NCBI GenBank assembly: GCA_025457915.1
Contig: JALOTL010000016.1
Location: 1-64,000 of the forward strand
Length of the DNA stretch: 64,000 nucleotides
Direction: 5' to 3'
DNA from: Spirochaetota bacterium
Lineage (GTDB): Bacteria; Spirochaetota; UBA4802; UBA5550
Shown here piece after piece: positions 26,867 through 63,241 of the stretch. The position numbers and the translations under genes are program-made. The number at the start of each line of letters is the position of its first letter. Position 1 is the first letter of the stretch. The notes under the pieces were generated by a model. That model saw only the letters and a list, made by a program, of their open reading frames with translations. It was not told the origin of the DNA and did no database searches.

Positions 26867-28444
26867 ATGATCAAAAAAATCGTATCCGTTTCTGTTTTCT
26901 TCCTTATGCTGCTGATCTCGGTGGGCGTATTCGCCCAGGCCGCAAAGGATAAAAACAAGGAACAAGAAGTTGTAAAAAAAGAGGAGCCCAAGGCGACAGG
27001 CCCTGAGAAGCTCATGATTTATGACGGGGCAAACATCAAGCTCCAGTTTTACGGTTACGTGAAGCTCGACGTTGTATACAACACGAGAAACGTACAGAAT
27101 GAATCAGGCCCATTTCTCGTAGAACCGAGAAAAATCTTCGACACGGGCCTGACCAACTATGTTTTTTCAGGTAATGCCGGATCAGCGGATTACAGGACTA
27201 TGCTGGCATATTTTCCGGTTGTTTACGGAAAAACAAAAGCCATGAATAATGGTTCTCTTGTTGCGGACCCGAGGCATACAAGGTTCGGTTTTAAAATAAT
27301 GGGCCCCGTAGCGCTGGGAGCAAAAACTTCCGCGTTGATCGAAGCCGACTTCTGGGGAATGACCGCGGCGTCAGGTACCGGACTAAGGCAGGGACAGCTC
27401 AGGATGAGACACGCCTCTGTGCGCATGGACTGGACCTCCGAATATTACAAGGCCTATCTCCTTATGGGACAGTTCTGGTCAATAGTGATGGCGGATCCCC
27501 AGGCCCAGCCCAACATGGTGACCTTCATTCCGCTCGGGAAAACCGGTCTTCTCTTCATGAGGGAGCCCCAGATAACCCTGGGACAGACAGTCGGAACTAA
27601 AGCCATCAGCCTCAGACTTGAAACATCTGCGGCCAGGGTCATGGGAGGAGACGATCCCGGAGCGACTAGCGTCGCCTATAACGGAAATAACGCTATTCTC
27701 CAGGTAGTGAACAACATGTATCCAGGCGCCAACAATACCCAGGTCGATTCAATCGGTCGCGGTGAGGCATCCAAGAAACCCGGATTCAGGGGCAGAGTGG
27801 CGCTGGAATCTTCTCCGATCGACGACCTCAGCTTAACTCTCGGGGGCACTACCCAGTACCAGATTGAAAAACACGAAATTCCTCAGACGGTACTTTTGAG
27901 CAATGTCCCAATGACCAGCATGAGCAAAAAAGTCAACTCCTTCGTCTGGCAGGTATACACGAATATTACGTACTCTTTTGCCAGTATAATTGGCGCTTAC
28001 TGGAGAGGCAAAAACCTCGACACATTCCTCAGCGGACTCGACCAGGGCGTTGTATGGGAAAAGGGCATGGCCTTTTCAATTCCGAATCCTTACGGCGGTA
28101 ATTTCTCTACTGTAATGGGAACGCCTTACACGGGCTATGTTTACAGGGTATACACAATTAAGACCCATGCGATTTACGGACAGCTGGTTCTAGATTTCAA
28201 CAGGGTGAAAATGCTGCCGCTGTCTTTAGGCACCGGTTTCGGCCAGGAGACTAAAACCAACGCCCACTACGTGGCTGCCGGCAAAATCCTCTGGAACAAG
28301 CAGATTTTCGGAAACATGTGGTACTACGCGAACGATTACCTCAAATTCGGTTTCGAAGTAACCGCGATGCAGACGAAATACAAGAAAGACCTCGGCGTGG
28401 CAAAAAACATGAAGTACCAGTTCGCCACCCAGTTTACTTTCTAA
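26867..28444 (+). CDS. Outer-membrane porin-like beta-barrel protein
   Basis: A 525-residue exported protein: signal peptide to about residue 23 (GVFAQ), a charged KEEPK linker, then a long beta-rich barrel beginning KLQFYGYVKLDVVYNTR. It ends in phenylalanine (ATQFTF), the terminal signature recognised by the BAM machinery. The opening strand and overall plan resemble DcaP-like or OprP-like trimeric porins; substrate unknown. GGAGGG seven bases before the ATG supports the start. It is monocistronic, with a strong terminator. The upstream spacer carries the interrupted repeat element. Confidence 0.8.
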   Translation: MIKKIVSVSVFFLMLLISVGVFAQAAKDKNKEQEVVKKEEPKATGPEKLMIYDGANIKLQFYGYVKLDVVYNTRNVQNESGPFLVEPRKIFDTGLTNYVFSGNAGSADYRTMLAYFPVVYGKTKAMNNGSLVADPRHTRFGFKIMGPVALGAKTSALIEADFWGMTAASGTGLRQGQLRMRHASVRMDWTSEYYKAYLLMGQFWSIVMADPQAQPNMVTFIPLGKTGLLFMREPQITLGQTVGTKAISLRLETSAARVMGGDDPGATSVAYNGNNAILQVVNNMYPGANNTQVDSIGRGEASKKPGFRGRVALESSPIDDLSLTLGGTTQYQIEKHEIPQTVLLSNVPMTSMSKKVNSFVWQVYTNITYSFASIIGAYWRGKNLDTFLSGLDQGVVWEKGMAFSIPNPYGGNFSTVMGTPYTGYVYRVYTIKTHAIYGQLVLDFNRVKMLPLSLGTGFGQETKTNAHYVAAGKILWNKQIFGNMWYYANDYLKFGFEVTAMQTKYKKDLGVAKNMKYQFATQFTF

Positions 28445-51631: not shown

Positions 51632-53608
51632 TTAATTATTCGGAGCCCCTTTATTTAAAATCTCAAGCGCCCATTTCGCGGCAAGGTGCCCGTTGCCCTT
51701 CCGCAAAACCGTTATTATCCCGGTCTCCCCGCGGCCGCCGAAAAAAATCCCGTAACTTACCGGTCTGTTAGTACCGTCTATGACCGTCGACGTTTTCCCC
51801 CATGTCTCTTCCATGTTTGTCCGCACCGGTTTTTTTTGAAGCGGTAAATAATTCCTGGGGTCGCCGTATTCCTTGACTGCGCCGGATGCCGTTCCCATGA
51901 TGAATGTTTTCGCAAGAAGGCCGTATACTTTCCTGGCAGCCTCCCGCCTGATTCTTTTCGGTTCGCCTCCGGAGTCACGCCCGCTGGCATGCAAAAATCC
52001 CGCGATTTTCATGAGATCCCCGACCGAAAAAAATACCCTCCTGTCAAGGCCGGAAAGTATTTTTGAAAAATCCCCCCCGTCTGGAAGATTGTCTTCAATT
52101 CCGCATTCGCCGCAAAACCTTTCGAAAAAGGCGCGGAACCCTTCCTCTGATATTTCCCCCGCGAGAGACGCGAAATACATGTTGCACGATGACGGCAGAG
52201 CGTCTTCGATGCCGATGTCGCCGTGGCCCCCTGGCTTCCAGCAGCCCTCCGGCAGGAGATTGTTACCCTTTTTTCCGCCGCATGAAAATCTGTACCCTGA
52301 AAACAGATCAGGTCTTTCGGACGCCAGATAAAGGGCAGCTATTATCTTGAATATGGATCCGGACGGCAGCCTCCTTTTCTCCATTGATGGATTCGACGCT
52401 TCAATTATCCTCCCGCTGTTTAAATCAAATTTCACGTAAGACAGATAAATGGACGCGGCTCCGTCTTCGGAAGCCCTGAACTTCAGCCCGGGATGGTAAT
52501 GCTCCAGTATTTCGTATCTTCCGTATCCCAGGCTGGAAAGGGCCAGTGCCCCTTTCTGACACAGGCCCACTCCATGTCCCAGTCCCATGCCGCTGAAAAC
52601 AAACTTCAAATCACCCGATGAATGGTCTTTCTTTACGGTGTAATTGTTGCTCTTAATGAAATTCCATCCCCTCTTCCTGTTGATCCTCAGTCTGAAATCC
52701 TCGGACGCGTAGTCCTTTTTATTGTTATCCATAGCAATCCGTATCACGGCGCCTCTTGATTCGACATCAAGGATTCTTTCCGCTGCTTTTCCTTTCGTCC
52801 CCAATATGCCTCCCAGTTCCGATGCAGGCAGAGTGCGTTCCCAGCCGCTTTTGCCGTCCCTGCAGAGATATCTCCCCGTTTGAAAAAGCCTGTCCCTTAC
52901 GCCGTCATCCCCGGGACGCGAACCAAGCCTGAAAAGCCCCCGGTCAAGAGTGACGCCCCCGCAGCAGGAATGAAAAAAAAGTACTGCTGGTTCTATCATG
53001 TCGCAGTCCGGAACAGGTCCGTTCCATGACACCCCCCTGTAGACCTGGCAATGCGTGAGATCGCAGAAATCATATCCGTCATGTACAGGCGCGATTTTAC
53101 GGTACCTCGAGGAAATAACGGCGCCCAGCGCGTAAACCGCCTCCATCCCCCCCGGAGGGGTTTTCCCGAATTCAGAAACAGCCGCGTCCATGCAATACGC
53201 GGAAAGCCTTTCGCTGGTTATTATCACGGGGTCCGGTCCGGCATCGAGCCGGACGGTTAAAGGCGTGCGGTAGGACCTGGCGCCGCCTTTCAGTTCAATC
53301 CTTGCGACGCCGGGACCGCCTCCGTCGGCTCTGAAATCGAATTTACCGGAAAAGACCCGGCCGTTTATTTCAGCGTGCCAGGCTCCTTCACGAAAATATA
53401 TCCTGAGCCGTCCGCCGCCGGTTTGCAGTCCGGAGCCGCTCTCCCTTACGGGGGTGGATCCGTCAAAGACGAATACAAGAGGGACGCCGTTGTTCCTTGC
53501 GAGCCGCAGGTGCTTTGAAAGAATCCCTATCCTGACCGCCGGCTCTTCCGTTCCATTCAGGGGCAATATCGCGAGCGATAATATGATAAGCGGGAAAAGC
53601 CTTTTCAT
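51632..53608 (-). CDS. SpoIID/LytB domain fused to a penicillin-binding domain
   Basis: A 658-residue exported protein with a signal peptide (to about 19). Residues about 130-375 form a SpoIID/LytB domain: SERLSAYCMDAAVSEFG, DLTHCQVYRG (184-192), HSCCGGVT (213-220) and LGHGVGLCQKGAL (344-356). These proteins cleave or bind denuded peptidoglycan glycan strands. Residues about 385-655 look like a penicillin-recognising serine domain with SxxK at Ser418-Lys421, SxN at Ser474-Asn476, and Lys605-Thr606-Ser607 where KTG is expected. It begins six bases after the macroglobulin gene. The fusion is unusual; whether the serine domain is active is open. Confidence 0.8.
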   Translation of the reverse strand: MKRLFPLIILSLAILPLNGTEEPAVRIGILSKHLRLARNNGVPLVFVFDGSTPVRESGSGLQTGGGRLRIYFREGAWHAEINGRVFSGKFDFRADGGGPGVARIELKGGARSYRTPLTVRLDAGPDPVIITSERLSAYCMDAAVSEFGKTPPGGMEAVYALGAVISSRYRKIAPVHDGYDFCDLTHCQVYRGVSWNGPVPDCDMIEPAVLFFHSCCGGVTLDRGLFRLGSRPGDDGVRDRLFQTGRYLCRDGKSGWERTLPASELGGILGTKGKAAERILDVESRGAVIRIAMDNNKKDYASEDFRLRINRKRGWNFIKSNNYTVKKDHSSGDLKFVFSGMGLGHGVGLCQKGALALSSLGYGRYEILEHYHPGLKFRASEDGAASIYLSYVKFDLNSGRIIEASNPSMEKRRLPSGSIFKIIAALYLASERPDLFSGYRFSCGGKKGNNLLPEGCWKPGGHGDIGIEDALPSSCNMYFASLAGEISEEGFRAFFERFCGECGIEDNLPDGGDFSKILSGLDRRVFFSVGDLMKIAGFLHASGRDSGGEPKRIRREAARKVYGLLAKTFIMGTASGAVKEYGDPRNYLPLQKKPVRTNMEETWGKTSTVIDGTNRPVSYGIFFGGRGETGIITVLRKGNGHLAAKWALEILNKGAPNN

Positions 53609-53614
53609 CAGGAA

Positions 53615-56600
53615 TTACTTCTTTTCCACCTCGACGATAAACGGATCCGACCAGCCCTGGATGGTCGGTTCATACATGCACTCCATCCTCGCCGGCTTTA
53701 CCAGGAATTTTCCGGGTAGCTCGGCCCTTATTATATAGGCTACTTCGTATATCTCCCCCCTGGCCAGATTGGTGAAGAAAAAAACCATCCGGTTGTCCCA
53801 CCTTTCGGAATGCACGAAAGGCGTCTCGTCGTAAGCGCTGTTTTTAACAACCTCGAAACCCGAGGGAAGATAGTCCTCCATCACCATGTATTTGAAGCTG
53901 TCCGACGCGACGAACCTGAGCTTTACCAGCAGTTCGTCGCCGATTTTTATCTGCCTTTTTTCCTCGAGGCTCTGCGGGACCAGGTATTCGTTGTTCTTGA
54001 GGTCCCTCACCCTGGTAATGGCCGAGACCGCCCTCGTGATGCTTATTCCGTTGGATAGCGCCCTCAGACTGCCTGCTTCAGACTTGAATATCGACATTAT
54101 GCCCTTTTCCTTGAAATAAAGGGAGCCCTTCATCACAACATCAAAACTGGCGTCCGGCGAGGCGCCGTTCAATGCCTCCACCACGAACTCCGGTTTTTCC
54201 TTTCCGGATTTCAGCTCGATCTTTTTCTTCAAATTGCCCATGGATTTCCTGTCTTTCATATCGTACGACATGTCAGCCACATTCGAACCGTCCAGCGTGA
54301 ACCGGACTTTCCCGGTGGCCGCCGGAACCATGCCGGAGGTTTCAATGTACTTGCAGACGGCCATCATCACGCTGGATGTTTCCTTGGTTGAACCCCACGC
54401 GTCTCCTCTCGATCTTCTCGACAGCGAGCTTGCGGCCTGGGAGGCGAGGGTTGATTTGTTCCCGGATTCAACCAGAGCCGACAGCGCGTGGGCCGTCATT
54501 TCCACGTCCCCGCCGGGCCATCCCCAGCTCTGGCCAGCATCAGACTGCCAGTATATGCCCTTCTCGTCCTTCTTTACGCTGTCCAGGAGACGGTCCGAGT
54601 AATCCCTGCCGTCTCTTTTCAGGGATTCGGCCTTATCACCCGACAGGATCCCTTTCTTTTCAACATTGGCAATCGCCCTTACAAGGCATGAAAACTGGTA
54701 AGCGTTCGCAGGTTTCCTCTTCACGAGCTCTGCATACGCCGTTTCATTCCATTTCCCGAAAATGGAATAGACGTAAATCAGGTATGCAACCTGGTCTGAT
54801 TCTATTCCGGCGGGGCTTTTCAGTATCCTCCCCATAGCTTCTATCCCCCTGTTGCGGACCTCGAGGTCGATGGTGTATCCCATCGATGCCGCTATAGAGA
54901 GGGACTCCATCACGAACCCGGTAAGAAACTCATTGCCCCTGTCGCCGTACCACCAGCCCCAGGTGCCGTCGTCGTTCTGCATCTGCTGGACCCTTGACAG
55001 GCCTGTTTTAACCTTGTCCTCGAGATTCTTCTTGTACTTATCTGACACGAGCGCGTCGAATCCCTTCTGCCTCATGAGTTTCTGAAGAACGGCCGCGGGC
55101 AGGAACCTGTTCATGGTCTGCTCGATGCAGCCGTAAGGATACTTGCTGAGGAATTTCGCCGCCCTTACCATCTGGACTATCGGAGACGGGTTGAGGCTGA
55201 TGGTCATCTCTTCGGGAACGAACCTGAAATCATCCCCTGGCTTGAGAGGTGTCAGTGTGACCTTCCTGCCCGATGCCAGGTCCCCTATGCCGTACATTTT
55301 ATACGATACGCCCCGCTTTTCAACCGGTATGGAAAGCCTGAGGGCGTCCCTGGCGTCGCTGTCGGCCACGGCCCTGTATTCGGCCTTCACCTCTTTTTTT
55401 CCTGCCGGGACATTGTAATCATAGTAGTTCCTGACGGAGCCGTATGCCGGAAGGCTTATTGCAAGCTCACGGTCCGGTTTGTAAGCAGACCCGTCGATCT
55501 TGAACTCGGTATCGATTTTTTTAAGCCCGCGCTCCGTGTTGCTGTTGACTATGCCTATCAGTGAAACCGAATCCCCTTCCGTGAGGAACCTCGGCTTACC
55601 AATCCTCGCTATAAGGTCCTGCGTTACGAGAAATTTATGAATGTTCTCACCGACCCTTCCTTCAAGGTCGTGCCCGCGCGCCGTGAGCCTCCAGGTCGTC
55701 AGGTTGTCCGGCAATATAAATTCCACCGAGGCGAAGCCCTTTTCATCCGTCCTGATGTTCGCCTTCCAGAAGGCGGTGTCGTCGAATTTTTCCCTGACTT
55801 TGACCTTCCCGTCCTTCCCGGCGCCGGCGAGAAGCGTTATTGGATAGGAATAGCTGGTGACGACCCAGTTTGTTATCCTGGAATAGAAGTATCCCTGCAT
55901 TTTAGGGGTGTGGTCGTACCTGATCTGGTAAATGGCCTCGTCAACCGCCGCCAGGGAAAGGTCGGCTTTTACGGGCCTGCCCTTGCCGTCCGTGGCCTTT
56001 ATTTCGATCCTGGCCTTATCTCCGGGTTTGTATTTCTGCTCAGCGGTTTTCAACTCCAGCCGCAGCCGCGTGTCTTTAACGGGAAGCGTTATCTCGACGC
56101 TGTTCGCGTACAGCGCCCTTTTTCTCTGCATGGTTGCGGTGAGAAAAAGATTGGGCGCGTAGGCGCTTTTTATGTTGAATTTAACCGGAACGATGTTGCC
56201 GTTCATTTTCACGACCCTGTGCTCGTATACGTCCCTTCCCTCGAGAGTGATGCAGACATATGAATCGGTAAACCTGCTCTTCAAAATGCATGTCACTTCC
56301 TGGGGCCTGCTCAGGCTGGTCACGTTCAGGGACACCTCAAGGTTTTTCAGCCGCGAAGAAACGTTGAAGCCGGAATCGCTGTAGATCCAGATCACCCTCG
56401 AGGCCGTTATCGGATTTTCCTTCCTGTCCGTCGCTCTCGCCACCAGGTCGAATTCCCCGTAAGCGGACATCTTTTTCGGGAGTTTCAGGAGCGCGAAACC
56501 CTTCGCGTCAGTGGTGACCCTGTCGGTGTAGACCGGGTTTTTATCATGCACGTAAACCCTCTGCCAGGGTTTCCAGAGATACCTGAAAAGCTCGACGTTT

Positions 56601-58969
56601 ACCGTGGCCCTGACGGGCTTGCCGGCCTGGTTCAGCGTCAGGACTTCTATCTCCTTCTCCTCCCTGTCGGAGAAAAAATTCTGCCTGGGGTTTATCTTGA
56701 TGTAGAACTCGCCCCTTCCCACCCTTATCTTTTTTATCGACGTGATTGTCACGTTGGACTTGTCCGTCACGGAAGCCTCGAGAGTGATCTCCCTATCGTA
56801 GGGCAGGCTGCCGGCCGATATCCCGAGAACGGCAATGCCGTTGTCGTCCACGTATTTTTCACCCTCAAGTTTGATCTTGCTGTAATACTGTTCAGATTCG
56901 GTCTCCTCTTCCCACCAGTATCTTGAATCCGCGTCCCGGAGCTTGGTCTCGTAGAACCTGTACTTCACCAGCGCCCCCTTCAATGGAGCGCCGAAAAAGT
57001 ACTTTGCCTCGACCTTGAATTCGGCAGTGTCGCCGTTTATGAAGTAATCCCTTGATGGAGTTATGTCGATCTTGAATTCAGGCTTCCTGTACTGCTCGGC
57101 ATAGAATCTCCCGGAAGCATAAAGGTTGTTCTTGGTAGGCCCGGTCCTGATCTCATATTCGCCCAGGTTGATCTCGGGAGAGAGCTTGATCCTGGAGCTG
57201 GCGGTGCCCCATTCGTCCAGGAAGAGTGTGCCCTCATCGACCGTCTTTCCCATGTCGATGTTTTCTATCCTGTAGTAAATTCTTTCGTTCTTTAGAGGCA
57301 CATATCTGGCGTCCCTCTTTTTTCCGATGACCTTGTAAAAAACCGTGTCGCCTGCCCTGTAGACGGGCCTGTCGGTGTATATGAAATACCTGTTCACCTC
57401 TTTTCGGAACGATGTTGACGATCCGGAACTGCATATGGCGTAGCTACCGTCAGGACCGATTGCGAGCACGGAAAGATACATGCCGGACGCTGTGTTTTTC
57501 TGAAACACGCCGTCTGCGTCGGTCTCGCCGCTCGAGATAATTTTAATCGGAAGCTCTTCGATTCTCTGCGGGGGAGTGAACCTCTTCTTTTTCTTCTTGT
57601 CGCTCTTTTCGGGAGTGGAATCAAAAACGGCTATCTTCGCCCTTCCGGTGGGGCTGTTGTCGATCAAATTCGTTACATACACGAATACCGATCCCGGCGA
57701 GCGCTTTACCACCGATCCGATCGAGGTCACGGTGAAAAATTTCCTGCTGATGATCCTTCCAGGGCCGGACACCTCAACGCAGTATCCGCCCGTAGCGAGC
57801 GGATTCTTTATTTCAAGCGACTGGTATTTCCATTCGTACGGCCGGAAATCGTTGATGGACTCTTCCCATCTTGCCACCCTGGCGAACCCCTCCTTCTGGG
57901 GATCCATGACCGAAGGATTGCCTCCGCCGCGCAAAAAGACGTCTATTGGAACCTTGTATATTGTGACCCTGACGCTCTCAAGCCTGAAGCTCTTCAGGTT
58001 GAACTCCAGCTTGTTTCCGGGAGCGAAGGTGTAGCGGTGCGTATACACCTCGATCTGCGGCTCTTTCGGCTTTACGGTGAAATTTACCGAATCCCTGCTC
58101 ACGCCCTCGGCAATATTAATGGCCTGGGATTCGAGCGCATGGAAACCCTCATGTGTTATCTTCAGCCTGTAGTAGCCCGGCTTGACGTCCTCGAGCCTGA
58201 AGGCCCCGTCCTGGTATGTCACGGCGGAATAGGTGACGTTCCCGGCCGCGGTCACGTTCATGTTGATGGCGGGCGCATCGATGCCCTCGATCTTTATCTT
58301 GCCGGATATCACGGCGGGCCTGATCATCATCATCGGGAGATTGAAGCCCTCGCCGGTTTTTATGTCCTTCAGCCTAGCGGTCTCCGTGATGTATCCGTTT
58401 TTGGAAAAAGTCGCGGTATACCCTCCCCCGGTAAGCTTTTTGAAGACGTACTTTCCGCCCTGGTCAGTGACGGTCGTGAGGGGTTTTTCACCAGGCTCGA
58501 AATATTCGTATCCCTTTTTTACGCTTACGTCGACGCCCGCCAGCGGCGAGCCCCTGGAGTCCCTGACGACGCCGGACAGGACCGCTTCCTTTTCGAGGGT
58601 GATCGACTGGGTGCCTTCGGATATCACCCCGGTCGACCTGTAAGTGACGTATCCGTCAGCCGAAACCTCTATGACGTATTTTATGTGGGGTATGAAATCA
58701 TCTATGCTGAAATTCCCGGAGGAATCCGATTCACGCAGATAGTATCCGAGGCCCATGTTCGCGTTTTTAATCTCAACCCTGGCCCCCTTTACTCCCCTGC
58801 CGGTGGACGACTCAACGACCCTTCCTTCTATAACGGATTTTGAGGGAAGCTTTTTCCCTCCATCCTCGAAAATTGTAAGTCCGTCCACGGTTTTTCTGGA
58901 ACCCGGAGTGGAACATGCGGCCGCGAAACAGGCCGCAAGAATGATGAAAATAAAATATGACTTTTTCAT
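53615..58969 (-). CDS. Alpha-2-macroglobulin family lipoprotein with thioester
   Basis: A 1784-residue lipoprotein (ATG 58969 after GGGGGTGG; lipobox AAAC about residue 19). Three carboxypeptidase-regulatory-like Ig domains come first (about 45-110, 130-200, 215-285), followed by the MG-domain stack, the bait region, and the thioester domain with YGCIEQTMNRF, whose cysteine is about residue 1281. A helical toroid and receptor-like end follow. Bacterial macroglobulins are thought to trap attacking proteases in the periplasm and often sit beside a penicillin-binding protein gene, as here. It is the central gene of a tight minus-strand run. Confidence 0.92.
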   Translation of the reverse strand: MKKSYFIFIILAACFAAACSTPGSRKTVDGLTIFEDGGKKLPSKSVIEGRVVESSTGRGVKGARVEIKNANMGLGYYLRESDSSGNFSIDDFIPHIKYVIEVSADGYVTYRSTGVISEGTQSITLEKEAVLSGVVRDSRGSPLAGVDVSVKKGYEYFEPGEKPLTTVTDQGGKYVFKKLTGGGYTATFSKNGYITETARLKDIKTGEGFNLPMMMIRPAVISGKIKIEGIDAPAINMNVTAAGNVTYSAVTYQDGAFRLEDVKPGYYRLKITHEGFHALESQAINIAEGVSRDSVNFTVKPKEPQIEVYTHRYTFAPGNKLEFNLKSFRLESVRVTIYKVPIDVFLRGGGNPSVMDPQKEGFARVARWEESINDFRPYEWKYQSLEIKNPLATGGYCVEVSGPGRIISRKFFTVTSIGSVVKRSPGSVFVYVTNLIDNSPTGRAKIAVFDSTPEKSDKKKKKRFTPPQRIEELPIKIISSGETDADGVFQKNTASGMYLSVLAIGPDGSYAICSSGSSTSFRKEVNRYFIYTDRPVYRAGDTVFYKVIGKKRDARYVPLKNERIYYRIENIDMGKTVDEGTLFLDEWGTASSRIKLSPEINLGEYEIRTGPTKNNLYASGRFYAEQYRKPEFKIDITPSRDYFINGDTAEFKVEAKYFFGAPLKGALVKYRFYETKLRDADSRYWWEEETESEQYYSKIKLEGEKYVDDNGIAVLGISAGSLPYDREITLEASVTDKSNVTITSIKKIRVGRGEFYIKINPRQNFFSDREEKEIEVLTLNQAGKPVRATVNVELFRYLWKPWQRVYVHDKNPVYTDRVTTDAKGFALLKLPKKMSAYGEFDLVARATDRKENPITASRVIWIYSDSGFNVSSRLKNLEVSLNVTSLSRPQEVTCILKSRFTDSYVCITLEGRDVYEHRVVKMNGNIVPVKFNIKSAYAPNLFLTATMQRKRALYANSVEITLPVKDTRLRLELKTAEQKYKPGDKARIEIKATDGKGRPVKADLSLAAVDEAIYQIRYDHTPKMQGYFYSRITNWVVTSYSYPITLLAGAGKDGKVKVREKFDDTAFWKANIRTDEKGFASVEFILPDNLTTWRLTARGHDLEGRVGENIHKFLVTQDLIARIGKPRFLTEGDSVSLIGIVNSNTERGLKKIDTEFKIDGSAYKPDRELAISLPAYGSVRNYYDYNVPAGKKEVKAEYRAVADSDARDALRLSIPVEKRGVSYKMYGIGDLASGRKVTLTPLKPGDDFRFVPEEMTISLNPSPIVQMVRAAKFLSKYPYGCIEQTMNRFLPAAVLQKLMRQKGFDALVSDKYKKNLEDKVKTGLSRVQQMQNDDGTWGWWYGDRGNEFLTGFVMESLSIAASMGYTIDLEVRNRGIEAMGRILKSPAGIESDQVAYLIYVYSIFGKWNETAYAELVKRKPANAYQFSCLVRAIANVEKKGILSGDKAESLKRDGRDYSDRLLDSVKKDEKGIYWQSDAGQSWGWPGGDVEMTAHALSALVESGNKSTLASQAASSLSRRSRGDAWGSTKETSSVMMAVCKYIETSGMVPAATGKVRFTLDGSNVADMSYDMKDRKSMGNLKKKIELKSGKEKPEFVVEALNGASPDASFDVVMKGSLYFKEKGIMSIFKSEAGSLRALSNGISITRAVSAITRVRDLKNNEYLVPQSLEEKRQIKIGDELLVKLRFVASDSFKYMVMEDYLPSGFEVVKNSAYDETPFVHSERWDNRMVFFFTNLARGEIYEVAYIIRAELPGKFLVKPARMECMYEPTIQGWSDPFIVEVEKK

Positions 58970-58982
58970 AACCACCCCCGAA

Positions 58983-59576
58983 CTATTTTATGGTCACGGC
59001 CCTGAAGGCCGAATACTGGCATTGCCCTTTCCCGGAAAACCCGCGCAGCTTCGATGAACACCTCAATTCCGATGGAACAAGGATGGAATCGCCCTTCCCA
59101 TCGCACGATTCAACGACCCCGAAACTCGCCACGTCTATTACTGTAACGTCCTCCACCGGATACGGCTGGGTCGTGACGGTTATGATTATCTCCGCGTCGG
59201 CGACCTCGCTTATGTCCAGCGGCCTGGATCTTTCATCCCTCCTGAGCGCCCCGGCAAGATAGTCCCTGAGGACGCGGCTTATATCCGGCGACCCGTGGAC
59301 GAATGACCCGTAGCAACCCCTTACTTTCCCGCCCTTTTTCAGCGTGACGAACATCCCGAACCTGCCGAAAAAATCCGGCGTTTTTAAATGCCTGTTTCCC
59401 ATGCTTCCCTGCGACAGGAATTTAAACGCGCACGAGCGAAGCCATTCGACCATCTCTTTCGCTTCGGCGCTTTTCCCGAATTTCCTCCATTCATCAAGTC
59501 CGTCATCGCCGGATAAGGGCCCTGCAGCGAGAGCCATTGTTAAAATCATTATAATTGCTTTCCGAAGTCCCGCCAT
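58983..59576 (-). CDS. Exported AMMECR1-domain protein
   Basis: A 197-residue protein with a signal peptide (MAGLRKAIIMILTMALAAG, cleavage near PLSGDD). The rest matches the AMMECR1 fold pattern: GMFVTLKKGGKVRGCYGS (about 74-91), AGALRRDERSRPLDISEVAD (about 108-127), and IITVTTQPYPVEDV (about 131-144). AMMECR1 proteins are usually cytosolic with unknown activity, so an exported one in an envelope operon is unusual. It lies 4 bp after the VanW gene and 13 bp before the macroglobulin start. Confidence 0.75.
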   Translation of the reverse strand: MAGLRKAIIMILTMALAAGPLSGDDGLDEWRKFGKSAEAKEMVEWLRSCAFKFLSQGSMGNRHLKTPDFFGRFGMFVTLKKGGKVRGCYGSFVHGSPDISRVLRDYLAGALRRDERSRPLDISEVADAEIIITVTTQPYPVEDVTVIDVASFGVVESCDGKGDSILVPSELRCSSKLRGFSGKGQCQYSAFRAVTIK

Positions 59577-59580
59577 ATCG

Positions 59581-60324
59581 CTAACGCACGCATACCCCGC
59601 GGTCAGCCGGCATGGGGTCTTTCAATCCGTTCCTGACGGGAGGATAATAATCCTTGTACAACAGCCTGGTTTCCACGAGCCTGGCGCCGAAAAATTTTTT
59701 TCTATATACATGGACGGAAAAACCCTGCCTTATCCTTTCCCGGTCATCTTCAAGCGGGAGCGGAAGGTCTTCCTCTTCCGTCGTTATCTCGTATTTGAAT
59801 GGAGTTTCTCCCGGCGCCATGATTTCCACGGTCAGGCTTTTGTCGTTAATGGAGGTCATGATGGTGAGCGGCCTTCCGGATGAGTTTTTCATCCTCAGGT
59901 CTTTTTTCCCGTACTTTATCGTCGCGTCCAGGCCGGGCGGCACGTAGCTGACCGGCTTGAAATGCCTGTGCCTTTCAACTATATCGCCACCGGATAGAAG
60001 CAGCGCGTTAAACAGCGTGGATGAGACCTGGCAGAGACCGCCGCCCGGCTCCATTCTCACGTCATCGCGGTAGAGCACCCTGCCGTTTAAATAGCCGTTC
60101 GCTGTGGATCCCTCGCCGACAATTTCATTGAATGAAAAAACCGCCCCGGGCGATATGACCGACCCGTTCAATCTCAGGCAGGCTATTGAAATGTTTTTTT
60201 TAACCGCTTCGTCCTGGTCCGAAATTGAGGTTGTATATGAAGAAAGAACCACCTGCTCTCCCCGCGGCGCGCTAAAAACCGCGGCGGAGGACGCCAGGAT
60301 AAAAATTATGATTATTTTTATCAT
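59581..60324 (-). CDS. VanW-family exported protein
   Basis: A 247-residue protein with a signal peptide (to about 19). The VanW core is clear: LNGSVISPGAVFSFNEIVG (about 52-70), MEPGGGLCQVSSTLFNALLLSG (about 91-112), VERHRHFKPVSYVPPGLDATI (about 116-136) and MKNSSGRPL. VanW was named from vancomycin resistance clusters and is linked to cell-wall modification; its reaction is unknown. It begins 38 bp after the small exported gene and leads into the AMMECR1 and macroglobulin genes. Confidence 0.88.
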   Translation of the reverse strand: MIKIIIIFILASSAAVFSAPRGEQVVLSSYTTSISDQDEAVKKNISIACLRLNGSVISPGAVFSFNEIVGEGSTANGYLNGRVLYRDDVRMEPGGGLCQVSSTLFNALLLSGGDIVERHRHFKPVSYVPPGLDATIKYGKKDLRMKNSSGRPLTIMTSINDKSLTVEIMAPGETPFKYEITTEEEDLPLPLEDDRERIRQGFSVHVYRKKFFGARLVETRLLYKDYYPPVRNGLKDPMPADRGVCVR

Positions 60325-60362
60325 GCCGCGACCATGACTATTAATACCGCATACACGGGCCT

Positions 60363-60842
60363 TTATTTGCTTTCAAAAAATTCCCTTATTCCCTTCATCT
60401 TTTCCTCGAAAACCATGGAAAAATAAATCTCTTTCAGGCTGCATCCTCCCCTGGATCCGTCCATTTCGAATTCGATGAAGAGATTATATATCTGCGCGTC
60501 TTTCGTTTCATCCATGACAATGAAGAACGCAAAAACCCCGCCCGAAGAATAAAACCTTATCCTGTTCATCCTGACGCCGTGTTTCTTGCAGTCATAATAA
60601 AAAAGGCCGAACCTGTCGAGAAGCCTGATGCCCGACCCGCCCCTTTTTATCATGCCGCCAAGGCATTCCCTTATTCTTTTTTCCTGTTCCGGATTGTCGT
60701 TTATGGCCCTGGAAAGAAAAGCCGAGCAGTATTCCTTCAGCTCGCCCTCCGACATCTTGGCCTCGGCCCAGGAACAGAAAAAAACCGCGGTCAGGAAAAA
60801 AGCAGCCAGGGACGCCTTCGCGGAAGTTTGCTTTGAAATCAT
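60363..60842 (-). CDS. Small exported protein of unknown function
   Basis: A 159-residue protein with a signal peptide (hydrophobic about 10-25, cleavage near SWAEA). The mature part is mixed alpha/beta, with three cysteines (EYCSAFL, RECLGG, DCKKHG) plus one near the C-terminus (GCSLKE). It is the first gene of the minus-strand envelope run and is divergent from the PBP1A gene across only 65 bp, so the two must share a promoter region. No family is recognised. Confidence 0.6.
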   Translation of the reverse strand: MISKQTSAKASLAAFFLTAVFFCSWAEAKMSEGELKEYCSAFLSRAINDNPEQEKRIRECLGGMIKRGGSGIRLLDRFGLFYYDCKKHGVRMNRIRFYSSGGVFAFFIVMDETKDAQIYNLFIEFEMDGSRGGCSLKEIYFSMVFEEKMKGIREFFESK

Positions 60843-60907
60843 CGGCCGATTGCCCCTGTTATAAAAATATCTTGCATCTTGAATATCGTTATGTTATTTA
60901 ACACAGC

Positions 60908-63241
60908 ATGGGCAATAAAACAAGATATTTTTTCTTAGCCTTGATGGCCTTTATTGCCGTGGTCCCCTTTTTCTACATCGTTTACGGCTACAAGAAAAGC
61001 TACGACGTCATCCGGAAGGGCATAGAATATCAGCCGTATCTCGCTACAAGAATTTATGACGTCAACGGAGAGCTCATATCCGAGCTCTTTTATGAGAACC
61101 GGAGCATAACCGACATAAAAAGCATCCCGCCGCACGTGATACAGGCCTTCCTCGCCGCCGAAGACCAGAACTTCTATTCTCACGGGGGCATGGATTTCAT
61201 CGGCATCGGCAGGGCGCTCATAATTGACGTACTGTCCGGTTATTTCAAGCAGGGAGGCTCGACGATAACCCAGCAGCTGGTGAAGCAGCTGTATACAAAA
61301 AGCGAGAAAACCTTCTCCAGAAAAATCATCGAGCTCTTTCTTACCAGGGAATTCGAAAAAAAATTCGATAAAAATGAAATCCTGCAGATGTACTTCAACC
61401 AGGTTTATTTCGGACACGGGGTGTTCGGGATTGGCGCAGCTTCCAGGTTCTATTTTGACAAGGATGTTGAAAACCTGGGATACATCGAGGCCGCGCTTCT
61501 CGCCGGCATCCCGCCGGCCCCCGGCAGGTATTCGCCGATTAAAAATGTAAGGCTTTCCTTCAACAGGCACATGCAGATCATAAGAAACATGATAAACGCA
61601 GGATACGTGGACAGGGACGACGCCCTTGTAAAATTCGGACAGTTCTGGGAAAAATATTCCGACGACCTGAAGCTCAAGTTCCAGGACCTCGGTGTAAGAA
61701 ACATTTCAAACGACCGGGCGCCACATTTCACCGAGCACATAAGACGAATGCTGGTCGAGAAATACGGCGAGGAGGCCGCTTACTCCGCGGGAATGAAAAT
61801 CCATACCACCCTCGACCTGAGGCACCAGGCCGCGGCCGAGGCCGCGATAAGGGAAGGGCTGGAACGTCAGAACGAAGTCGCGTCGCGGTTCAATTCCGAT
61901 ATCATAAACAATGCGGACATAAGCATGCTTAGAAAAGACAGGCAGCTGAAAAAAATCCCGGCAATCAGGCGCGGCACGGAAAAAAAATTTCTCAAGGAAT
62001 TCAGGGGGGAGGCCCTCGAGGAAGCCCTGTTTGCATCCCAGCTCTTCGGTCTTTCCTCGATGGAGGACGCCATCTCCGGCTATTCGGACGAATTTGAAAA
62101 ATTCGCCCAATCGGCAAGAGTCGAGGGCGCGCTTATCGCGATAGACCCGGCGGACGGCTCCATAACAGCGATGGTCGGGGGAGGAGATTTTCATTCCGAA
62201 AACCAGATAAACAGGGCAGTCCAGTGCACCAGGCAGCCCGGCTCCTCATTCAAGGCATTCGTATACGGCGCTGGCATCGAAACCGGCCAGATCACCCCCG
62301 CGACCGCATTTCTGGACGCGCCGATCATATTCAAGGACAGAAAAAAAACATGGTCGCCTTCGAATTATGAAAAGAGTTTCCAGGGAAAGGTGCTGGCCAG
62401 AAAAGCATTCGCCATGTCTCTCAACATCGTTTCCGTATTGATTCTCGAAAAAATAGGCATCAACACGGTATCCGGGTTCGCGTCAAAGATGATGAAGATA
62501 CCGGCATCCAGGTTTGAGCTGGATCCGACCCTTGCCCTCGGCACCACGGAGCTTTCGCCCCTTGAAATGGCCCGGGGCTTCGCGGTCATAGCCAACAGGG
62601 GGAAAAACGTCACCCCCCATTCCATCCGGTACATCGAGGACAAAGCGGGTAAAAGGATATATTCAGGTCCGGGACAGTCGGCTGAAAAAATCATATCGGA
62701 AGATACCGCGTTCCTTCTTACCAGCCTTCTTCGCGAGGTGGTAGATCGGGGCACGGCGGCCTCTGCGGTGCGAAAGGGCGCTGGTTTTCATCTGCCGGCA
62801 GCCGGGAAAACCGGCACCAACACGGATTTCCGCGACGCATGGTTCGTCGGGTTTACGCCGGATCTTGTCGCCGCCGTATGGATGGGATGCGATTCCCAGA
62901 AATTTTCCCTAGGACGGGGCCAGAGCGGATCCGTCGCGTCCGCGCCGGTATGGGGAAAATTCATGAGCGGGATTTACAGGTTCAGAAAGCCCTCGAGGTT
63001 CCCTACGCAGCCCCCAGAAATTAAAAGCGTAAAAATCTGTTTAAAAACCGGGCTCGTCCCCCTCGGCGACTGTCCAACAACGACAGAATACTTCATCAAT
63101 GGCACGGAGCCAAGGACAATCTGCAATTCCGACCACAGCGATATGATAAGCATATTCGACCAGATAAAAAAATCAAAGCAGGAAATGAAGGACAGGATAA
63201 AGTTAAACATAGACAGCGAGCAAATAAATACGGAAGAGTGA
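60908..63241 (+). CDS. Class A penicillin-binding protein (PBP1A-like)
   Basis: A 777-residue bifunctional peptidoglycan synthase. The membrane anchor is at about 8-27. The glycosyltransferase-51 domain shows AAEDQNFYSHGG (83-94, catalytic Glu85) and QGGSTITQQLVKQL (115-128). The transpeptidase domain has SxxK at Ser446-Lys449, SLN near 497, and KTGT at 634-637. It ends with an acidic and lysine-rich tail. Divergent from the VanW/macroglobulin run, it resembles the pbpC-macroglobulin pairing of other bacteria, but the sequence is of the PBP1A type. Confidence 0.95.
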   Translation: MGNKTRYFFLALMAFIAVVPFFYIVYGYKKSYDVIRKGIEYQPYLATRIYDVNGELISELFYENRSITDIKSIPPHVIQAFLAAEDQNFYSHGGMDFIGIGRALIIDVLSGYFKQGGSTITQQLVKQLYTKSEKTFSRKIIELFLTREFEKKFDKNEILQMYFNQVYFGHGVFGIGAASRFYFDKDVENLGYIEAALLAGIPPAPGRYSPIKNVRLSFNRHMQIIRNMINAGYVDRDDALVKFGQFWEKYSDDLKLKFQDLGVRNISNDRAPHFTEHIRRMLVEKYGEEAAYSAGMKIHTTLDLRHQAAAEAAIREGLERQNEVASRFNSDIINNADISMLRKDRQLKKIPAIRRGTEKKFLKEFRGEALEEALFASQLFGLSSMEDAISGYSDEFEKFAQSARVEGALIAIDPADGSITAMVGGGDFHSENQINRAVQCTRQPGSSFKAFVYGAGIETGQITPATAFLDAPIIFKDRKKTWSPSNYEKSFQGKVLARKAFAMSLNIVSVLILEKIGINTVSGFASKMMKIPASRFELDPTLALGTTELSPLEMARGFAVIANRGKNVTPHSIRYIEDKAGKRIYSGPGQSAEKIISEDTAFLLTSLLREVVDRGTAASAVRKGAGFHLPAAGKTGTNTDFRDAWFVGFTPDLVAAVWMGCDSQKFSLGRGQSGSVASAPVWGKFMSGIYRFRKPSRFPTQPPEIKSVKICLKTGLVPLGDCPTTTEYFINGTEPRTICNSDHSDMISIFDQIKKSKQEMKDRIKLNIDSEQINTEE

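Follow-up and report, generated by a model that had tools for sequence, protein, structure and literature searches.

What do bacterial macroglobulins, recognised two decades ago, protect against, and why do they lie beside cell-wall enzymes? Both questions are raised by a 64,000-nucleotide stretch of DNA from a Spirochaetota bacterium (GenBank assembly GCA_025457915.1, contig JALOTL010000016.1, positions 1 to 64,000; hereafter the window), in which a macroglobulin (A2M) gene lies in a tight minus-strand row with genes for a VanW protein, an AMMECR1 protein and a fusion of a SpoIID-type lytic domain with a penicillin-binding transpeptidase (TP) domain (SpoIID-TP). Here we show that this four-gene set is conserved and co-inherited, with the motifs of its enzymes intact.

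Within the row, SpoIID-TP is separated from A2M by 6 bp, A2M from AMMECR1 by 7 bp and AMMECR1 from VanW by 4 bp, and a fifth minus-strand gene, hyp159, lies 38 bp upstream of VanW. The open reading frames bear out the first-pass annotation of the window, which had described five packed minus-strand genes with gaps of 4-38 bp. Its statement that all five products carry a signal peptide or a lipobox also found support: a simple hydropathy test, used here instead of a signal-peptide predictor, placed a hydrophobic export-type segment at the N-terminus of 5/5 minus-strand products, and the A2M start contains a lipobox-like FAAAC, that is, a lipoprotein-type start. From these segments we infer that the four module proteins are exported. 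In a motif scan, promoter-like sites were no commoner than in shuffles, and terminator-like sites were only slightly above them. Domains in the window were called by Pfam and NCBIfam profile searches with curated cut-offs.

Of 59 related genomes searched, one of them the window's own, 30 have a window-type A2M with at least 44% identity. Up to 20 kb was fetched around most A2M loci, and gene order was scored in the 20 loci whose flanks reached about 4.5 kb or more on each side. The order VanW-AMMECR1-A2M-SpoIID/TP recurred on the same strand in 15 of these 20 loci, 12 of them compact, while VanW-AMMECR1-A2M was kept in 18. The four-gene order spans at least three families, and 4-bp gene overlaps are common in the orthologous loci, often between VanW and AMMECR1. 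Where linkage was broken, SpoIID-TP was found away from A2M but elsewhere in the genome (G020, G042 and G035) or was absent (G011); in two genomes (G026 and G038; loci L051 and L052) the window-type A2M stands by itself, the VanW orthologue lies at another place, and the genome also carries a second A2M locus. Two further loci (L034 and L036) have extra genes inserted between the module genes, with the order still kept.

Presence across genomes tells the same story as order. A VanW orthologue occurs in 27 of the 30 genomes with a window-type A2M versus none of the 29 without it (Fisher p = 9e-14), a count in which a contig-end fragment in G039 (E = 1e-14) was taken as present and distant partial matches in G021 and G030 (E about 1e-26) were left out. 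The three A2M-bearing genomes without VanW are 72-73% complete. For the fused SpoIID-TP the corresponding figures are 24/30 and 0/29 (Fisher p = 3e-11); both p-values ignore the relatedness of the genomes, but presence also differs within genus g3 and within families f4 and f7. That unrelated envelope genes came together by chance in a single genome could be argued from the adjoining hyp159 and PBP1A, a class A penicillin-binding protein (PBP), neither of which is conserved beside the block. Synteny across families and co-occurrence (p about 1e-13 and 3e-11) nevertheless lead us to reject a chance neighbourhood, which we regard as virtually excluded. The first-pass annotation had proposed conservation of the order in relatives as a check on its idea of a larger periplasmic system that would detect or repair cell-wall breaches; the order and the co-occurrence together uphold an envelope module larger than the known pair of A2M and PBP1C.

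The same genomes bear on whether the module serves housekeeping wall remodelling in growth, motility or shape, with A2M as a regulator or scaffold that has no trapping role. Such a role would suit the conservation of all wall-enzyme motifs and the presence of paired TP and SpoIID beside A2M in several phyla. Distribution speaks otherwise, since genus g3 is patchy, with all three parts in four genomes and none in two, and an accessory system therefore fits better. Given, in addition, the invariant thioester residues of A2M, we consider a housekeeping role unlikely.

These residues belong to the largest product of the module. The A2M gene (53615..58975, minus strand; 1786 aa), the sole A2M gene in its genome, encodes MG2, BRD, A2M, TED and bMG10 domains, all over the Pfam cut-off, preceded at the N-terminus by three CarboxypepD_reg repeats; the true start is probably an ATG two codons inside the GTG. 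The thioester motif CIEQ occupies residues 1283-1286 within TED (codons at about 55118-55129), and C1283, E1285 and Q1286 are invariant in an alignment of 16 orthologues. The protein may be pictured as a membrane-anchored periplasmic trap: an intruding protease would cut the bait region, upon which the thioester would bind the protease covalently, as in YfhM-type A2Ms. In this it would resemble the protease-trapping proteins of the human immune system.

On the other side of A2M, the SpoIID-TP gene (51632..53608, minus strand) encodes a 658-aa protein with the SpoIID-type lytic domain at residues about 110-377 and the penicillin-binding transpeptidase domain at residues about 390-650. Because its AlphaFold model (pLDDT 82.7, pTM 0.84) matches both PBP3/SpoVD transpeptidases and the SpoIID structures 5i1t and 4rwr in fold comparison, we take the protein to be a real two-domain fusion. 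Among the orthologues S418xxK421, S474xN476 and K605T606 of the transpeptidase part are invariant, as are E156, C182 and C187 of the SpoIID part, with H176 nearly so; E156 is presumably the SpoIID catalytic glutamate. Folds and active-site motifs are shared with the SpoIID lytic transglycosylase and the SpoVD/PBP3 transpeptidases, whereas here both domains reside in a single protein. To our knowledge, spore formation is not known in the window's lineage.

The VanW gene (59581..60324, minus strand; 247 aa) scores 148 bits on PF04294 against a cut-off of 27 and is the sole VanW gene in its genome. Cys98 (in GGGLCQ), His119 and His121 are invariant in 17 orthologues, and the GGGxC and RxxH-type His are retained in distant loci too; among PDB sequences the protein has no solved relative. 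Work in C. difficile added VanW proteins to the L,D-transpeptidases as their second family, with a triad of Cys, His and a small residue (PMC12729407), and the window VanW is a predicted L,D-transpeptidase with an export signal. With LdtCd4 and LdtCd5 it shares the VanW domain and its conserved Cys and His, but it has no detected PG4 domain and its host is a diderm; moreover, among the relatives studied, every genome with a close orthologue of it also has a window-type A2M. In Melainabacteria-type VanW proteins (L125, L127, L129 and L145) GGGICL replaces GGGxCQ. The alignment shows the Cys retained and the Gln changed, so that loss of the catalytic Cys in Melainabacteria was rejected.

Directly 5' of A2M lies the AMMECR1 gene (58983..59576, minus strand; 197 aa), which scores 53.8 bits on PF01871 against a cut-off of 25. 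Its AlphaFold model (pLDDT 91) has significant PDB matches only to AMMECR1 structures (1zq7, 1vaj and 1wsc), and R86, C88 and G90 are invariant among 31 sequences. AMMECR1 is a conserved family that includes a human member. The window protein shares the fold and the RGCxG motif with AMMECR1 and AmmeMemoRadiSam protein A. It differs from the latter in being predicted to be exported, in its divergence, in scoring 40.7 bits on the TIGR04335 equivalog (cut-off 99), and in its partners, as Pfam finds no Memo or radical-SAM gene in the operon. The window's genome has two canonical AMMECR1 genes and a further divergent one (G000:C20:17598-17999).

The genes flanking the four proved to be of a different kind. 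The 159-aa product of hyp159 (60363..60842, minus strand) matches no Pfam or NCBIfam family and has no homologue in the orthologous loci; the gene is possibly co-transcribed with the module and is not a conserved part of it. Facing the row is a class A PBP gene (60908..63241, plus strand; 777 aa), which the first-pass annotation had paired with A2M. Its product belongs instead to the PBP1A family (TIGR02074, 569 bits; PBP_1c, 324 bits, below its cut-off of 494), shares the genome with three other class A PBPs, and has no homologue adjoining the orthologous modules, so that we rejected it as a module member. Genuine A2M-PBP1C pairs do exist in other relatives (L062-L066), where the A2M is of a separate lineage. 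Elsewhere in the window, a minus-strand 16S rRNA gene is truncated at the left end (1-750), and positions 26867-28444 encode a 525-aa protein without a Pfam match.

To place the module more widely, GTDB genomes were scanned with the A2M alignment, which yielded 79 named loci, and partners were found with profile hidden Markov models (HMMs). Outside the window-type order, VanW and/or AMMECR1 stand beside A2M in metagenome-assembled genomes (MAGs) of about nine other phyla, although some of these loci are single MAG contigs in which binning errors are possible. The MAGs with such loci are named as Spirochaetota, Deltaproteobacteria/Syntrophaceae, Omnitrophota, Nitrospirota, Proteobacteria, Bacillota, Armatimonadota, Actinomycetota, Melainabacteria/Cyanobacteria and Vermiphilus. 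The order may be rearranged, as in TP-SpoIID-AMMECR1-A2M-VanW of an Armatimonadota MAG (L134), or in L125, L127 and L129, where TP and SpoIID run divergently from AMMECR1-A2M-VanW; the distant AMMECR1, VanW, TP and SpoIID genes that were tested were confirmed by Pfam. In two Bacillota MAGs VanW is fused to the C-terminus of A2M (L099:9569-14719 and L101:9569-14689), occupying residues 1504-1630 behind bMG10 in L099 by Pfam, and L101 is alike by the partner HMMs.

The 79 loci fall into two alternative partner sets: 46 have VanW and/or AMMECR1, 25 have DUF1175, 8 (several of them on short contigs) have neither, and none has both. MagC and YfaT make up the DUF1175 family, which is NlpC/P60-like and has been cited as an inactive member that binds peptidoglycan (PMC10318531). 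The PBP1C type forms its own branch of the A2M tree with a support of 99, and the VanW/AMMECR1- and DUF1175-type A2Ms lie together. Partner labels of all groups require 6 changes on this tree versus 31 in shuffles. Because very few changes separate the VanW/AMMECR1 and DUF1175 labels, their exclusivity rests on few independent switches. Common to both sets are SpoIID and transpeptidase, including in spirochaete and acidobacterial mag/yfa-type loci. In E. coli YfaQ ('Tandem DUF2300', L067:6149-7798) the SpoIID domain is above cut-off, and an N-terminal stretch aligns with the window transpeptidase part (hhalign 90.8%, E = 1.2e-6), with SLWK kept and SxN changed to SCG.

The VanW-A2M fusion invites a reading in terms of covalent tethering, not defence: VanW and the thioester would fix the A2M lipoprotein, or a partner of it, to peptidoglycan and so connect membrane and wall structurally, while SpoIID-TP would open and close the mesh where the attachment is made. 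In other diderms L,D-transpeptidases do anchor lipoproteins to the peptidoglycan (PMC12729407), the window A2M is lipoprotein-like, and peptidoglycan binding is what MagC is cited for. However, the enzymes known to tether are of the YkuD family, not VanW, and A2M retains a full bait region (PF07703) and the architecture of a protease trap; we find tethering quite improbable.

On balance we think it somewhat more likely than not that the module represents a third class of A2M operon in bacteria, in which a covalent protease trap is coupled to cell-wall cutting and re-crosslinking. From homology and from the genetics of the mag operon we infer the interaction of the partners, trapping, catalysis and a role for AMMECR1. 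The wall enzymes would act on peptidoglycan at the same place as the trap, at sites of envelope damage. There, the SpoIID domain would cut damaged, peptide-stripped glycan, the penicillin-binding domain would make or trim D,D-cross-links, and VanW would use existing tetrapeptides, and no new lipid II, to make L,D (3-3) cross-links. The role of AMMECR1 is the most uncertain. Its gene lies directly 5' of A2M in almost every one of these loci, where it would occupy the DUF1175 (MagC/YfaT) position of mag/yfa operons, and the most economical guess is that it is an A2M partner helping to mature, guard or reset the trap. The whole module might guard against envelope attack, be it by protease and peptidoglycan-hydrolase effectors or by predators, and would probably serve both to defend and to mend a breached envelope. 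MagD of the mag operon is a protease trap that interacts with its operon partners (PMC5764988), and magD protects P. aeruginosa against the peptidoglycan-targeting type VI secretion effectors VgrG3 and Tae1 (PMC12663445).

Several points weigh against the third-class reading. We know of no experiment on any VanW/AMMECR1-type module, nor of any established activity or function of AMMECR1. In E. coli and P. aeruginosa the thioester has been lost from the MagD lineage, and the MagD phenotype may for this reason not carry over to the window A2M. By sequence, both parts of the fusion protein score below the curated cut-offs, the SpoIID part at E = 3e-15 on TIGR02669 and the transpeptidase part at 18.8 bits (E = 0.001) on PF00905, where the cut-off is 22.1. 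Finally, L,D-transpeptidase activity is absent from some VanW proteins (PMC12729407).

A bolder version of the third-class reading would see an envelope-immunity system that is widespread and so far undescribed. Its complement-like thioester trap would form a single machine with an L,D-transpeptidase, which in some Bacillota is fused to the trap, and with a protein that cuts and cross-links, and an exported AMMECR1 would be the dedicated macroglobulin cofactor. We offer it tentatively, as a possibility; if true, it would give an AMMECR1 protein its first functional context in bacteria. The predicted place of AMMECR1 in the periplasm beside a thioester protein makes its role testable, and the newly recognised VanW L,D-transpeptidases gain a partner system outside the Gram-positive bacteria, where they are mostly found.

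How, then, does the module compare with the known macroglobulin systems? With type I, A2M plus PBP1C (YfhM/ECAM and the S. enterica A2M), it shares the CxEQ thioester, the bait region, the lipoprotein-type start and the link to wall-synthase genes (PMC3328433, PMC5764988). Unlike type I, it has VanW, AMMECR1 and SpoIID-TP as partners, and its A2M sits on a separate branch of the tree; filing it as type I was rejected, as CxEQ is present but the neighbour is the non-conserved PBP1A and not PBP1C. With type II, the mag operon (MagA-F) and E. coli yfaP-Q-S-T-A, it shares an A2M with several exported partners, among them a YfaQ-like SpoIID and transpeptidase. The latter is a type II trait recognised in this analysis, not a published criterion, and the window module possesses it. 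VanW and AMMECR1 hold here the place of the mag/yfa partners DUF1175, DUF2135 and DUF2138, none of which was found in the window block by Pfam or beside its orthologues by partner HMMs, and the thioester is intact, unlike that of E. coli and P. aeruginosa; filing as type II was rejected on these two grounds. In our data DUF1175-type A2Ms of Spirochaetota and Acidobacteriota retain CxEQ (L058, L060 and L061 are among the loci concerned), so 'type II lacks thioester' is not general. This accords with PMC3328433, which describes the thioester as lacking in many species.

Might the module still be a mag/yfa variant, with VanW and AMMECR1 as local substitutes? The shared SpoIID and transpeptidase partners and the joint position of both A2M types in the tree, well separated from the PBP1C type, would agree with this, but the missing DUF partners, the thioester and the lack of any locus combining DUF1175 with VanW/AMMECR1 would not. 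Nor would spirochaete genome G026, whose second A2M locus is mag-type, so that both types occupy separate loci of one genome. We judge such a variant improbable. The first-pass annotation had put VanW, AMMECR1 and SpoIID-TP outside the known layout. This stands for VanW and AMMECR1, which we found in no described A2M layout and for which we found no description with a macroglobulin in the literature, as far as our partial coverage of it extends; it does not stand for the SpoIID and transpeptidase part, which is not new because YfaQ contains the same pair. The VanW/AMMECR1 module would be a second, independent partner set for bacterial macroglobulins, and the SpoIID/transpeptidase pair found in both operon types points to the cutting and re-linking of peptidoglycan as their common task. 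Among the systems studied so far, the mag operon is the nearest relative of the window module.

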